Source: Gammaproteobacteria bacterium (GTDB taxonomy: Bacteria > Pseudomonadota > Gammaproteobacteria > Xanthomonadales > Xanthomonadaceae). From it: DNA of 10,945 bases. Position numbers and translations under genes: made by a program. Within the stretch, counting starts at the first letter, position 1, and the number at the start of each line of letters is the position of its first letter. The stretch covers positions 1-10,945 of the forward strand of contig JAHEBG010000016.1 in the NCBI GenBank assembly GCA_024642445.1. Direction: 5' to 3'. The notes under the pieces were generated by a model that worked only from the letters and a program-made list of their open reading frames with translations, ran no database searches and was not told the DNA's origin. Positions 1,629-5,874 of the stretch are shown one piece after another.

Positions 1629-1724
1629 ACTTAAACCCATGACTATCGGCCCATGCATTTTGTCCGGAAAATCGAGTATTCTCGGAAGCTGTTTGTTTAC
1701 CCTACCCCATTACGGAGAGTTTCT

Positions 1725-3806
1725 GTGAAAATGTCGATGAAAATGCTGTCGTTCAGTATCGTTGCCGCACTGAGCCTGAGCGCGTGTAAAAAAGAAGAAT
1801 CCACGGCCGATGACGGCGCAGCCAAACTGAGCATCGATATGAGCAAGTTGCCGCCTTTGCCGGCATTTGCTGTTGCCGACATCGACAGCAACGCATCGGC
1901 CTGTAGCGATCTGAATCAATACGTCAACGGCAAATGGCTGGCCGCCAATCCAGTACCTTCCGATAAAACCAGCTGGGGCAGCTTTGAAATGCTCGGCGAA
2001 TACTCGCAAGCCGTGCAGAAACAAATCGTAGAGTCTGCCGCTGCCAGCAAAGCCAAAACCGGCAGCGTTGAACAGAAAATCGGCGATATCTATGCACTGG
2101 GCAACAATGTGGAAAAACTCAATGCCGACGGCGTAGCTCCAGCCAAGCCGTTACTGGCTGAAATCGATGGCATCACCGACTCGGCTTCACTTGCCGCCTA
2201 CCTGCGCAACAGCTTCGCCAAAGGCAACCAGGCGGTATTCGCTTTTGGCCCCGGCGAAGACTTCAAGGACGCCAAAAACGTCATCGCCTATGCTTTCGAA
2301 AGCGGTCTCTCGCTGCCGGAAAAAGCCTACTACCTGGAAGATACCTACCAGGCCAAACGCGATGCGTTCGTGGCGCATGTGGAGCGCATGATGGTCTTGG
2401 CCGGCAACGATGCCACCACTGCAAAAGCGCAGGCGCAAACCGTGCTTGCCTTTGAAACACGCCTTGCCAAAGCATCTTTGTCGCCGATTGAAATGCGCAA
2501 TCCGGCCAACCAATACAACTTTGTCAGCTTGGCCGATGCCGACAAAGCCACGCCGAACTTCAATTGGACCGAGTTCTTCAAAGCCCAAGGCCTGGCGTCG
2601 GTCAAAGGCTTCTCACTGTCTCAGCCAAAGTTTTTTGCTGAAATGAACACCATGATTGCTGAAACACCGGTTGCCGACTGGAAGGCCTACCTGAGCTATC
2701 AAACCCTTAATGGCGCATCCGGCTTTCTGTCCGATGCCGTGTCCGATGAAAGCTTCGCGTTTTACGGCACCACCATGCGCGGTCAGAAAGAACAGCGTCC
2801 CCGCTGGAAACGCGTGCTAAGCACCATCAACGGCACCATGGGCGAAGCCTTGGGCCAGATTTATGTCGAACAGACCTTCCCGGAATCGTCCAAAGTACAA
2901 ATGCAGGGACTGGTGAAAAACCTGAGTCTGGCCTTGAAAGCACGTTTGGAAAAACTGGAATGGATGAGCGCCGAAACCAAGGAAAAAGCTTTGGCCAAAT
3001 GGGCCACCTTCGACCCGAAAATCGGCTATCCCGACAAATGGCGTGATTACTCCGGCCTGAGCATCAACCCGAATGCAAGTTATCTGGAAAATGCATTGGC
3101 TGCTCAAGCCTTTGAAAATGCCTATCAAATGAGCAAAATCGGCAAGCCGGCAGACCGCACCGAATGGGGCATGACACCGCAGACCGTGAATGCCTATTAC
3201 AACCCGCTGAAAAATGAAATCGTGTTCCCGGCCGCCATCCTGCAACCGCCGTTCTTCGATCCAAAAGCCGACCCTGCGCTCAACTACGGCGGTATCGGTG
3301 CGGTTATCGGCCACGAAATGCTGCACGGGTATGACGACCAAGGCAGCCAGTTCGACAAAGACGGCAACAACGTGAACTGGTGGAGCGAGGCCGATCTGAA
3401 AAACTTCCAGTCCCGCACCGGCAAACTGGTGGCACAGTTCGATGACTACGTTTCCATCGACAACCTGCACGTGAAAGGCCAACTGACCTTGGGCGAAAAT
3501 ATCGCCGATCTGGGCGGCCTGACCGTGGCTTATGATGCGCTGCAGCTGGAGCTTGCCAATAAAAAAATGCAGGCCGTTGACGGTTACAGCCAGGATCAGC
3601 GTTTCTTCATGAACTGGGCTACCGTCTGGCGCCGTAACTTTGCAGCCGAAGAGCTGAAAGTGCGTCTGAACACCGACCCGCATGCGCCGGCCAACTTCCG
3701 TGCCATCGGCGCGCCGTCGAACATGGACAGCTTCGCTGCCGCGTTCAGCTGCAAAGCCGGCGACCCAATGGTTCGCGGCGGTGACAAAAAAGTAGCGATC
3801 TGGTAA
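1725..3806 (+). CDS. M13-family (neprilysin/PepO-like) zinc metallopeptidase lipoprotein
   Basis: A zinc endopeptidase that cleaves oligopeptides, predicted to be lipid-anchored facing the periplasm. The zinc site is HEMLH (530-534) plus E591 in GENIAD, with D595 completing the ExxxD motif. The substrate-binding NAYYNP motif begins at 489 and is followed by IVFPAAILQPP. I start at GTG 1725 because GGAG (1714-1717) lies seven bases upstream. The product then begins with a short charged stretch, a hydrophobic segment and the lipobox LSAC (C21), as in a type II signal peptide. An upstream in-frame ATG at 1653 has no ribosome site and would bury that signal. The 693-residue length is normal for M13. 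Only three cysteines occur (21, 60, 676). C60 and C676 match the position of a conserved neprilysin disulfide, and the usual last cysteine is absent (VAIW end). It is followed by its own terminator, so it is probably monocistronic. The substrate is unknown. Confidence 0.93.
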   Translation: MKMSMKMLSFSIVAALSLSACKKEESTADDGAAKLSIDMSKLPPLPAFAVADIDSNASACSDLNQYVNGKWLAANPVPSDKTSWGSFEMLGEYSQAVQKQIVESAAASKAKTGSVEQKIGDIYALGNNVEKLNADGVAPAKPLLAEIDGITDSASLAAYLRNSFAKGNQAVFAFGPGEDFKDAKNVIAYAFESGLSLPEKAYYLEDTYQAKRDAFVAHVERMMVLAGNDATTAKAQAQTVLAFETRLAKASLSPIEMRNPANQYNFVSLADADKATPNFNWTEFFKAQGLASVKGFSLSQPKFFAEMNTMIAETPVADWKAYLSYQTLNGASGFLSDAVSDESFAFYGTTMRGQKEQRPRWKRVLSTINGTMGEALGQIYVEQTFPESSKVQMQGLVKNLSLALKARLEKLEWMSAETKEKALAKWATFDPKIGYPDKWRDYSGLSINPNASYLENALAAQAFENAYQMSKIGKPADRTEWGMTPQTVNAYYNPLKNEIVFPAAILQPPFFDPKADPALNYGGIGAVIGHEMLHGYDDQGSQFDKDGNNVNWWSEADLKNFQSRTGKLVAQFDDYVSIDNLHVKGQLTLGENIADLGGLTVAYDALQLELANKKMQAVDGYSQDQRFFMNWATVWRRNFAAEELKVRLNTDPHAPANFRAIGAPSNMDSFAAAFSCKAGDPMVRGGDKKVAIW

Positions 3807-3825: not shown

Positions 3826-3852
3826 AAAAACCCGCTTCGGCGGGTTTTTTTT
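3826..3852 (+). terminator. strong rho-independent terminator after the M13 peptidase gene
   Basis: CCCGC-TTCG-GCGGG (3831-3844) is a five-base-pair GC stem closed by a stable TTCG tetraloop, preceded by five A and followed by eight T (3845-3852). It starts 19 bases after the stop codon. The last two T bases overlap the -35 element proposed for the next gene. Confidence 0.93.
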
Positions 3853-3879
3853 GCGCATTGCCGACAATGCCAGTACAAT
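3851..3879 (+). promoter_or_regulatory. sigma-70-type promoter placed for a leaderless mRNA
   Basis: TTGCGC (3851-3856) and TACAAT (3874-3879, 5 of 6 to consensus) are separated by exactly 17 bases. The ATG of the RapA-like gene begins seven bases after the -10 box, where transcription would normally start. No Shine-Dalgarno sequence precedes that ATG. Together these point to a leaderless transcript. This is inference from spacing; no start site has been mapped. Confidence 0.6.
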
Positions 3880-3885
3880 GCGCCG

Positions 3886-4848
3886 ATGCAGAACATCAAG
3901 CCCGGTCAACGTTGGATATCAACGGCCGAGCCCGAGCTGGGCTTGGGCACCATTTTACGCGCCGATAACCGCCAGTCCGATATCGTATTTACCGGATGCG
4001 GTGAGCTCAAACATTTCACGCATTCGGCCTCACCGTTAGTTCGCGTTCAATTCGATGCCGGCGATTGGATTTGTGTTAACGGGCAGGCGCAACAAATCGC
4101 CGAGCGCATCGAGCGCGAGGATATTGCGCACTATCTTTGCGACGGTACCGAGTTCATTGAAGGTTGCATTGATCCCGACCAACCCGACTTGCCTGCAGCA
4201 TTGCGCTTACGGGTGAATCAGTGCGACAGCGGACACTGTTTTGACCTGCGCCACGATGCGCTCCGGCTTGAGCAGTTGGACAAGGACGCTTTCGAACATT
4301 TCGCGCTTGCTGTGCTGGGCCACTTTGGTATTGGCTTCAAACCGCTGTCTGAACACCGCTTTCTTATCGATACCCAGGCATCTCAACTGAATACCGTCGT
4401 GCCTGAAGATGCCTTGTTTGCTTTTGACAACGAACAGATCACGATTGACTGCCAAACCATGGACAAATCGCATCCTCTGATCCAGGAAGCCTTGCATCGC
4501 GTTCTCAATAGCGCACTGGGCAATGCCTGTTTCATGGTTGATGACAGCCTTCCTGGCCGTAGCGCGGTGATGCAGACCTTGTTTACCGGGCCTGAAGGTT
4601 GCCGGCTTTTGGCCATTGACGCCGTGAACAACATTCTGCCGAATTACCGGCCTAGCGAACAGGCTCTGTACCGTTCTCAACATGCCCGGATTGACCTGCA
4701 GCCCTACAAACGCAGTCTGGAACGACTGTATCCGTTGATGCTGGAGCGCAGTTACCAAGAAGCAGAGGCGTTGGGCTTGGGCAGGCTAAGAGCTCTGCGC
4801 TTAGTGGTCGGCGCTGAATTCGCGTTATTCGGTCGCACTACGCGTTAA
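3886..4848 (+). CDS. RapA-like protein lacking the Swi2/Snf2 ATPase motor
   Basis: RapA is a motor ATPase that binds RNA polymerase and helps recycle it. Residues 1-125 here resemble the RapA N-terminal Ntn (Tudor-like) region: GQRWIS at 7-12, ELGLGT at 17-22, then SPLVRVQFDAGD (49-60). Residues about 135-235 resemble the RapA C-terminal region: a VLGHFGIGF segment (143-151), an acidic strand, SHPLIQEALHRVLNSALGN (195-213) and DSLPGRSAV. The end LRALRLVV (301-308) matches the RapA C-terminus. The roughly 550-600 residue helicase core expected between them is absent, with no Walker A, DExx box or arginine-finger motif. The spacer helices near the end are also shortened. The frame is intact, with no frameshift. 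The comparison uses RapA as remembered, without an alignment tool. Inference: it may bind RNA polymerase without translocating. The gene stands alone and convergently overlaps the rhomboid gene by four bases. Confidence 0.7.
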   Translation: MQNIKPGQRWISTAEPELGLGTILRADNRQSDIVFTGCGELKHFTHSASPLVRVQFDAGDWICVNGQAQQIAERIEREDIAHYLCDGTEFIEGCIDPDQPDLPAALRLRVNQCDSGHCFDLRHDALRLEQLDKDAFEHFALAVLGHFGIGFKPLSEHRFLIDTQASQLNTVVPEDALFAFDNEQITIDCQTMDKSHPLIQEALHRVLNSALGNACFMVDDSLPGRSAVMQTLFTGPEGCRLLAIDAVNNILPNYRPSEQALYRSQHARIDLQPYKRSLERLYPLMLERSYQEAEALGLGRLRALRLVVGAEFALFGRTTR

Positions 4849-5498
4849 ACACCCCAAGGACCGCGCCGCTGTTTCGGCTTAAAGGGCGGTTTGCCCTGCC
4901 AATAGCGGATCAGCAGCCAGCCGAACAACATACCGCCCAGATGGGCGAAGTGGGCAATGCCCGATACTGTTCCGGTGACGCCCATGAACAACGACAGCGC
5001 ACCGAACACAATCACCAGTGTTCGTGCCGACATGGGGATGGGGGGAATCAGGAGCATGACGCGCTCCCTGGGGAAAATCATGGCGTATGCCATCAGCAGT
5101 CCATACACGCCACCCGAGGCACCGAGAGTCGGTGCGGCGTTTTCCGGCATCCATGCCATAAATGCCAGCTGACAAAGCCCCGCGCCCACAACGCAAACCA
5201 TGAAAAAGCTAAGGTATTTCTTTGAGCCCCAGAATTCCTCCAGACGACTGCCGAACTGGAAAAGCGCAATGCCGTTGAACAAAATGTGGGTAAAGCTGCC
5301 GTGCATGAATCCATAACTGACCAACTGCCAGGGCTGGAAGCCAACCGTTACCGGCAATCCATCCGAACCAATGCCCAGTGGATAGGAGCCGAAAGGCCAC
5401 AACATGAAGTGCACCAACGCATCGCCCATGAATTGCTGCAGCAGAAACACGATGGCCATGATCCAGAGCAGATTGCGGGTCATTGGGGGTAAATGCAT
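4845..5498 (-). CDS. Rhomboid-family intramembrane serine protease
   Basis: A multi-span inner-membrane protein that cleaves substrates within the membrane. The 217 residues have about six hydrophobic segments. The catalytic serine is S128 in GASGG (126-130) and the catalytic histidine H186 in AHFAHLGG (182-189). HGSFTHILFN (66-75) carries the conserved HxxxN of the second core helix, so the protein appears active. I chose ATG 5498 because AAAGGA (minus strand, 5510-5505) lies six bases upstream. The frame stays open further upstream to 5690, but that part runs through the ATL gene. It is 43 bases downstream of the ATL stop codon and probably co-transcribed with it. The tail (PPFKPKQRRGPWGV) is basic. 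Its stop overlaps that of the convergent RapA-like gene. The substrate is unknown. Confidence 0.9.
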   Translation of the reverse strand: MHLPPMTRNLLWIMAIVFLLQQFMGDALVHFMLWPFGSYPLGIGSDGLPVTVGFQPWQLVSYGFMHGSFTHILFNGIALFQFGSRLEEFWGSKKYLSFFMVCVVGAGLCQLAFMAWMPENAAPTLGASGGVYGLLMAYAMIFPRERVMLLIPPIPMSARTLVIVFGALSLFMGVTGTVSGIAHFAHLGGMLFGWLLIRYWQGKPPFKPKQRRGPWGV

Positions 5499-5541
5499 GG
5501 AACGTCCTTTCAGCGATGTCCAGATAGCATAACCGATTGGC

Positions 5542-5874
5542 CTACTTCGGTGCCCACAACAGAGCGTCCAAATCCAGATCTGTTTTTGGCATGCGCACGC
5601 GCCCTGACTTGACTTCGATACCTTCGGCTCGTAAGCGCCGGCATTGTTCGGCGTACATTTCAGAGTCCTGGGCAAAAGCGATTTGACCACTGGCCCGCAA
5701 TACCCGATGCCAAGGCAAATTTAAATCCGACGATTCCGCCAATACACGCGCCACCAATCGCGCCCTGCCCGGCAAGCCGGCTCGTGCCGCAATTTGGCCA
5801 TAAGCGCAGACTTGCCCGTGTGGGATGGCACGAATGGCCATCATAATACGTTGTGTTTCTGGCGTGACTTTCAT
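5542..5874 (-). CDS. Alkyltransferase-like (ATL) protein, MGMT-like without the catalytic Cys
   Basis: Related to O6-methylguanine-DNA methyltransferase, but a sensor, not a repair enzyme. In this family the active-site PCHR becomes PWHR, so the protein binds O6-alkylguanine, flips the base and hands the lesion to nucleotide-excision repair. Here PWHRV is at 54-58, with W55 replacing Cys. The helix-turn-helix region GQVCAYGQIAARAG (20-33) carries the conserved Tyr, and R39 in RARLVARVL is the probable arginine finger. At 110 residues it matches stand-alone ATLs (about 100-110). No Shine-Dalgarno site precedes the ATG at 5874. A -10-like TATGCT ends six bases before it, again suggesting a leaderless mRNA. 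It follows pit by 46 bases with no visible terminator between, so read-through is also possible. Confidence 0.9.
   Translation of the reverse strand: MKVTPETQRIMMAIRAIPHGQVCAYGQIAARAGLPGRARLVARVLAESSDLNLPWHRVLRASGQIAFAQDSEMYAEQCRRLRAEGIEVKSGRVRMPKTDLDLDALLWAPK

Follow-up and report, generated by a model that had tools for sequence, protein, structure and literature searches.

RapA (HepA), the RNA polymerase-associated Swi2/Snf2 ATPase, offers the closest described comparison for a forward-strand gene at positions 3886–4848 of a contig from a gammaproteobacterium of the Xanthomonadaceae (JAHEBG010000016.1, assembly GCA_024642445.1); the whole stretch analysed, 10,945 nucleotides, is referred to as the window. 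The product of this gene resembles RapA in its N-terminal Tudor-like region, its linker helices, and its Spacer-like and C-terminal parts, which follow in the same order and with the same predicted fold, and the gene lies in the genomic slot in which relatives carry full-length rapA. Unlike RapA, however, the short form lacks the whole Snf2 core (Escherichia coli residues ~140–713), about 13 residues near 830–843 and residues ~902–955, and it has a conserved C-terminal FG-tail; moreover, the short loci have a conserved promoter-like element of their own, whereas 10 of 12 long-form loci have a divergent M13 peptidase paralog directly upstream. In the reading that we prefer, and to which we give an even chance, the gene is the clade's own rapA, which lost its Snf2 motor in place and was kept as a factor that binds RNA polymerase and needs no ATP.

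According to PMC8501970, the zinc-binding domain (ZBD) of the E. coli β′ subunit contacts RapA at NTD-A, in the N-terminal domain (NTD), and at the Spacer (E14 to H80 and D744 to K66, respectively), while the flap-tip helix contacts 1A/2A and α/β contact 2A. The role of the NTD is disputed: it has been called autoinhibitory, yet its deletion had little effect in that 2021 study. According to PMC8666675, RapA lowers the non-specific binding of DNA by core polymerase ~2.5-fold whether or not ATP is supplied, provided that RapA is there before the DNA, and passive clamp closure via the NTD–ZBD contact has been proposed. HelD, a recycling ATPase of Firmicutes and Actinobacteria, is proposed in the same source as a functional counterpart of RapA; in contrast to HelD, the short protein has no ATPase. 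The Tudor-like domains of CarD and Mfd that interact with RNA polymerase do so at other sites on the enzyme, and are compared here without a sequence relation. The C-terminal Tudor domain of UvrD/PcrA is a further point of comparison. Our searches of the open-licence literature found no description of an ATPase-less RapA.

Sequence and predicted structure of the short protein

The gene and the regions of its product are as follows.

3886..4848, forward strand: short (motor-less) rapA gene; 320 amino acids, ATG start, 36 kDa
3886..4047, forward strand: NTD-A/Tudor-1 region, residues 1–54 (E. coli 1–53), by PF18339
4048..4188, forward strand: NTD-B region, residues 55–101, by hhalign of the N half, with PF18337 in six of 63 relatives
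4189..4281, forward strand: linker helices, residues 102–132 (E. coli ~109–139), by alignment and structure model, part of the superposed block 103–311
4264..4287, forward strand: junction, residues about 127–134, where RapA ~140–713 is absent, by MAFFT and hhalign
4282..4650, forward strand: Spacer-like region, residues 133–255 (E. coli ~714–863, ~13 residues lost inside), by Pfam, MAFFT, hhalign and structural superposition
4651..4782, forward strand: region like the C-terminal domain (CTD-like), residues 256–299 (E. coli ~864–901; ~902–955 absent), by MAFFT, hhalign and structural superposition
4783..4845, forward strand: C-terminal strand and short-form-specific tail EF-x-x-FG-K/R-x-x-R, residues 300–320, conserved in 64 short forms

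The name Spacer follows PMC8501970, which places D744 there; the Spacer and CTD limits were otherwise chosen in this analysis.

Pfam called Tudor_1_RapA (PF18339) at residues 6–54 (E 3.2e-14; 53.1 bits, above the cut-off of 26.3), and the N-terminal part matched E. coli RapA by phmmer (E 9.4e-12). RapA_C (PF12137) matched residues 129–234 weakly (E 2.4e-5; 24.0 bits, below the cut-off of 26.8), and phmmer alone gave no significant match for the C-terminal part (3.0 bits). No helicase or SNF2 domain was called by Pfam in the 320 residues at E 1. All four Protein Data Bank sequences matched by the short protein are RapA; a viral structure library gave no match at E 0.001, and an Rfam scan of the whole window returned nothing at gathering score. 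The score against the NCBIfam RapA equivalog NF003426 (75.2 bits) falls short of its curated cut-off (576 bits), which is no surprise when about two thirds of RapA are missing. Because the protein fails this cut-off and lacks the ATPase, we call it a motor-less RapA derivative and do not name it RapA.

For alignment we used 14 full-length RapAs and E. coli RapA (15 long forms), and the window protein with 63 relatives (64 short forms). MAFFT placed residues 1–126 of the window protein on E. coli 1–139, residues 139–299 on 718–901 (the block that contains the internal loss of ~13 residues) and residues 300–320 on 956–968; its scattering of residues 127–138 over E. coli 593–634 was not trusted. 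In profile–profile comparison (hhalign) with the 15 full-length proteins, the N half scored E 5e-40 and the C half E 4.5e-24, the latter match beginning at residue 135, equivalent to E. coli 714, whereas the best of 20 column-shuffled C-half controls reached only E 0.065. Since the MAFFT blocks and this starting point leave out the same stretch, the Snf2 core (1A/1B/2A/2B, ~140–713) is, by alignment, absent from the short protein, as is ~902–955. In the predicted structure, a block of residues 103–311 superposes on E. coli RapA 110–967, the match ending at residue 311, and the linker, Spacer and C-terminal core are thus predicted to fold as in E. coli RapA.

An earlier note, made from the sequence alone, had read the product as RapA-like at its start, in its second half and at its end, without a helicase motif, and had attributed this to loss of the motor with both RapA ends joined. 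The lack of a helicase domain and the position of the gap agree with that reading, and both halves proved similar to RapA in the profile–profile comparison that the note had called for. The proposed motif at the very end stood less well: the final 20 residues (LRALRLVV...) are weak when taken alone (E 0.056, hardly better than the best shuffled control), although they align in order with RLDALRLIV and about half of them lie inside the structural match.

Five positions of the tail (G309, E311, F312, G316, R320) are invariant in all 64 short forms, and FG in the C-terminal tail was seen in none of the 14 long forms listed. The last ten residues have a low model confidence (predicted local distance difference test, pLDDT, of 65), and the tail EF-x-x-FG-K/R-x-x-R might be an interaction motif.

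Distribution of the short form

A protein search with the window product returned 93 matches, 63 of which (P0001–P0063; 319–363 residues) share the whole layout, at 43–83% identity and 98–100% coverage. One of them, P0057, bears the label Arenimonas, which may therefore be the genus of the window. PF18339 was found in all 63, PF12137 in 19, PF18337 in six, and the Snf2 motor family PF00176 in none, whereas the other 30 matches cover the query in part only and 22 of them contain PF00176. A profile search (7995 candidates scored, E 1e-20) yielded no full-coverage short form beyond the 63. Judged by sequence, motor-less RapA is a family of its own that shares one layout and not an accident. One further protein, P0094 (235 residues, 42% identity, 71% query coverage), has PF12137 only and is perhaps an incomplete short form, or one that has shrunk further.

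Tudor_1_RapA has exactly one match in each of the 27 genomes of the genus. Six of these (G000, G001, G006, G013, G014 and G024) carry the short form and match RapA nowhere else, while in the other 21 the matches fall at both ends of a longer gene, with PF00176 at the rapA locus in every case. The survey of relatives proposed in the earlier note thus recovered the same layout in six genomes and 63 clusters, with a separate full-length rapA in none of the six. Nor was a RapA-type motor found elsewhere in the short-form genomes: G001 has no PF00176 match and the other five have one each (20.6–31.4 bits), all overlapping stretches that strongly resemble the mfd model in its helicase part, within open reading frames of 699 residues (402 in G000); frames of ~700 residues like these are also present in long-form genomes. 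Mfd itself matched in all 27 genomes, above the cut-off in 26, the match in G000 being partial. The PF00176 search of the genus genomes therefore lends no support to a split RapA whose motor is encoded elsewhere; as G000 is 85% complete, the absence of a second RapA or motor rests mainly on G001 and G006, both 100% complete.

In a family sample of 395 genomes, 56 had any match, and the full-coverage short matches came from the same six genomes; short open frames in G010, G017, G064, G167, G181 and G230 match the N-terminal part only. The full-length rapA of G017 has an apparent frame break after the N-terminal domain at a run of GC dinucleotides (L016 ~1483–1496), and that of G010 likewise has one after this domain, beside an NN stretch (L020 ~926–974). 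Given these surroundings both are probable assembly errors, and motor decay was set aside as their explanation. The C-terminal RapA match of the long-form genome G016 (G016:C30:3679-4239) holds one TAA. The Tudor_1_RapA profile matched 32 of 149 sampled family genomes; rapA thus seems often to be lost outright across the family (or to fall below the threshold), whereas the short-form clade kept both ends.

Wider samples added no further short form. In the order sample (398 genomes), 157 matched, G000 was the only one of the six to be sampled, and no other full-coverage match appeared among the matches listed; in class (369) and phylum (398) samples G000 alone was recovered at E 1e-42, which is strict enough to overlook a convergent form whose sequence differs. 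With E. coli RapA 1–420 as query (words from 1–139), a RapA C domain without SNF2 occurred in none of the 120 matches listed out of 307. The genome-contig search gave one locus, L002, that matches full-length RapA over residues 4–712, up to the contig end.

Conservation and selection

Mean pairwise identities were computed for each region among the 64 short and 14 long forms; as the sets are not alike in depth or sampling, values are to be compared within one set first. NTD-A is the most conserved region of the short forms at 78% (81% in long forms), followed by the C-terminal segment at 73% (79%), the linker and the CTD-like region at 55% each (83% and 61%), the Spacer-like region at 45% (69%) and NTD-B at 41% (57%). 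The 64-row alignment has 53 listed invariant columns, among them the equivalent of E. coli E14 (E15 in the short protein).

The short frames are open in all six genomes, and the ratio of non-synonymous to synonymous substitution rates (dN/dS) is 0.13, 0.16 and 0.19 in the three pairs whose dS is below 1 (G001, G013 and G024 compared with one another). The remaining 12 pairs, including all five with the window gene, gave five ratios of 0.15–0.40 at dS above 1, which are unreliable, and seven that were saturated in dS and not computable. In the measurable pairs the short form is under purifying selection, conserved and not decaying, consistent with the earlier view of an intact frame that is no decaying remnant.

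Genomic slot and history of the short gene

The two immediate neighbours in the window are as follows.

1653..3806, forward strand: upstream neighbour, M13 peptidase (PF05649, PF01431)
4845..5690, reverse strand: downstream convergent neighbour, rhomboid protease (PF01694), its stop codon overlapping that of the short gene

Long-form relatives have the order M13 peptidase, rapA, rhomboid, MGMT-like, PiT, PhoU-like, CNNM and ExoD that is also found around the short gene, although not every member was found at every locus (L047, for instance, matched neither PiT nor PhoU). In all six short loci, window included, the rhomboid gene follows directly downstream. We examined 12 long-form loci from the 21 long-form genomes: in 11, rhomboid is the first of the searched genes to follow rapA, at times ~1 kb away, and the twelfth contig ends inside rapA. 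An M13 gene lies upstream in four of the six short loci (window, L032, L033, L035), and also in long-form loci of the genus; L034 and L036 gave no M13 match. Upstream of position 8618 in L034 (G024) there is no more than a short open tail with IAIW at its end, perhaps a remnant of the end of an M13 peptidase. The divergent paralog directly upstream of rapA in ten long-form loci (L037–L041, L046–L050) has 24–27% identity to the window M13 protein, and in all seven of these loci that were read its stop codon runs into or adjoins the start of rapA; it was not found at the short-form loci examined. From gene order, the short gene occupies the orthologous rapA locus.

A tree of six neighbour proteins was built for 17 genomes, of which five short-form and eleven long-form ones belong to the genus and one to another genus; G014 had too few neighbours. 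The five short-form genomes split from the other twelve with an ultrafast bootstrap of 100 and, when the tree is rooted on the other genus, group with G007, G025 and G005 (96). Because it joins the short-form clade to these genomes, the tree places the short form within the long-form genomes. On shared columns, a gene tree sets the 64 short forms apart from the 15 long forms by a branch of 1.2 (support 1.0). These trees are most simply read as a single loss of the motor, and a shortened version with both ends and without the motor seems to have taken the place of full-length RapA at its own gene position. Thus, by sequence comparison, the short-form genomes share the same locus, one RapA-type gene per genome, and both RapA ends, retained and conserved. 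These genomes are the smallest of the genus (1.5–2.2 Mb at 74–100% completeness, against 2.3–4.3 Mb in long-form genomes), which counts as one observation and not six, as they form a single clade.

A possible role at RNA polymerase and its alternatives

Both ZBD-contacting parts of RapA, NTD-A and the Spacer, are retained in the short protein and the E14 equivalent is invariant, and for this reason we propose an ATP-independent factor of the ZBD. By analogy with E. coli RapA, the short protein would sit at the ZBD/RNA-exit side of core polymerase. Its action would be passive: from termination until the return of sigma it would restrict movement of the clamp or non-specific binding of DNA, with no translocation or backtracking and no consumption of ATP, and so correspond to the passive half of RapA. 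Since the short version is conserved and not decaying, RapA seems to do something useful without its motor; the polymerase-binding or regulatory role suggested in the earlier note appears, from the sequence data, to be the most reasonable one. Autoinhibition cannot explain the conservation of NTD-A here, since a clade without the motor keeps this region nearly as conserved as motor-bearing RapA does. We hold more tentatively, at somewhat less than even chances, that the short form is a natural separation-of-function RapA, in which the Tudor N-terminus and the Spacer/C-terminal core make up an autonomous ATP-free regulator of the polymerase and NTD-A serves mainly that job and not inhibition of the ATPase. 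A natural 36-kDa protein makes motor-dependent and motor-independent roles of RapA separable, and it becomes possible to test a route by which, in small genomes, a polymerase-recycling ATPase may shrink to a passive factor.

Several observations weigh against this proposal. By analogy with the E. coli complex, most of the known polymerase interface is gone, including the flap-tip contacts of 1A/2A and the α/β contacts of 2A. The D744 position, E or D in all 15 long forms, is acidic in only nine of the 64 short forms (the alignment is gapped there), so that one of the two salt bridges to the ZBD has probably gone as well. Deletion of the NTD in E. coli RapA hardly changed RNA polymerase binding or activation, according to PMC8501970, so the NTD may be a weak polymerase binder. 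Contrary to the clamp-closing model, RapA opens the clamp in Brewer et al. 2025, as far as the citation in PMC12448304 and the title of PDB 8t0l indicate. The β′ residues K66 and H80 are present in all 13 genomes examined (three short-form and ten long-form, of 19 with an rpoC match), but their conservation in the ZBD is expected for other reasons too. NTD-A, though the most conserved part, is modelled least confidently (pLDDT 65–70 at residues 21–50). Finally, four of the five weak PF00176 matches in short-form genomes exceed the family cut-off of 24.9 bits, and the absence of a motor rests on reading these five proteins, by sequence, as putative RecG.

The loss of the motor-borne contacts and of D744 in most short forms would also suit a protein that no longer binds polymerase and has another role, such as binding nucleic acid through its Spacer/CTD or its Tudor-like domain. 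We consider this rather unlikely: the ZBD-touching residue is invariant, NTD-A is kept almost as well as in long forms while the remaining regions range over 41–73% (57–83% in long forms), and predicted isoelectric points of 4.8–6.0 across the 64 short forms do not favour nucleic acid binding. Alternatively, the Tudor end or the C-terminal tail might bring another motor (UvrD, Mfd or RecG) or partner to the polymerase, with the ATPase acting in trans. Such an adaptor fits the presence of Mfd throughout the genus, the six short-form genomes included, the likeness of NTD-A to partner-binding Tudor domains, and a short-form-specific tail, FG-K/R-x-x-R, that has G316 and R320 invariant and the low model confidence that an interaction motif could have; as Mfd is equally present in full-length genomes there is no co-change, however, and we consider this explanation, too, unlikely.

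That the gene is a decaying remnant heading towards loss, within a family in which only 32 of 149 sampled genomes match Tudor_1_RapA and in a clade with the smallest genomes of its genus, is very improbable in view of the low dN/dS in three pairs, six open frames out of six, 63 clusters of like length with their invariant columns, and the conserved promoter-like element; a pseudogene is disfavoured on the same grounds of selection, open frames and promoter-like element. The earlier note had also suggested competition with RapA. A competitor or dominant-negative partner of full-length RapA in the same cell would draw on the domains that the two proteins have in common, but with one Tudor_1_RapA match per genome in the genus and no other RapA match in any short-form genome, the two complete ones included, competition is ruled out within the genomes examined: the short protein replaces RapA, and we regard this idea as highly implausible. 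Least credible of all is an assembly or deletion artefact. The assembly is fragmented (382 contigs), the window being one 10.9-kb contig of it, and relatives with the full ATPase core do occur at this locus, as the earlier note had foreseen for that case; the layout is common to six genomes and 63 further clusters, however, with purifying selection in the measurable pairs, which rules out the single-strain deletion or assembly error.

Promoter-like element upstream of the short gene

Three elements lie between the M13 gene and the short gene.

3830..3852, forward strand: hairpin ACCCGC-TTCG-GCGGGT with T run, probable terminator of the upstream M13 gene, read from the sequence
3850..3856, forward strand: TTTGCGC, −35-like element, identical and in register in all six short loci
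3873..3885, forward strand: GTACAATGCGCCG, with −10-like TACAAT at 3874–3879, six bases ahead of the ATG; 12 of 13 positions identical in the six short loci

The arrangement of TTTGCGC, TACAAT at a distance of 17 nucleotides from the end of the −35-like hexamer, and the ATG after six more bases is conserved in all six short loci. In the alignment of their upstream regions, 15 of the last 17 positions are invariant, but only eight of the preceding 42, seven of which are TTTGCGC; one extra base ahead of the G006 ATG was omitted from these counts. A strict sigma-70 scan of the window gave no promoter, so the good promoter claimed earlier has no consensus match behind it, and the element is comparative evidence only. 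If it is used, transcription would start at about the ATG, giving a leaderless transcript. The hairpin is not in the list of the terminator pattern scan; the TTTGCGC of the putative promoter begins inside its T run.
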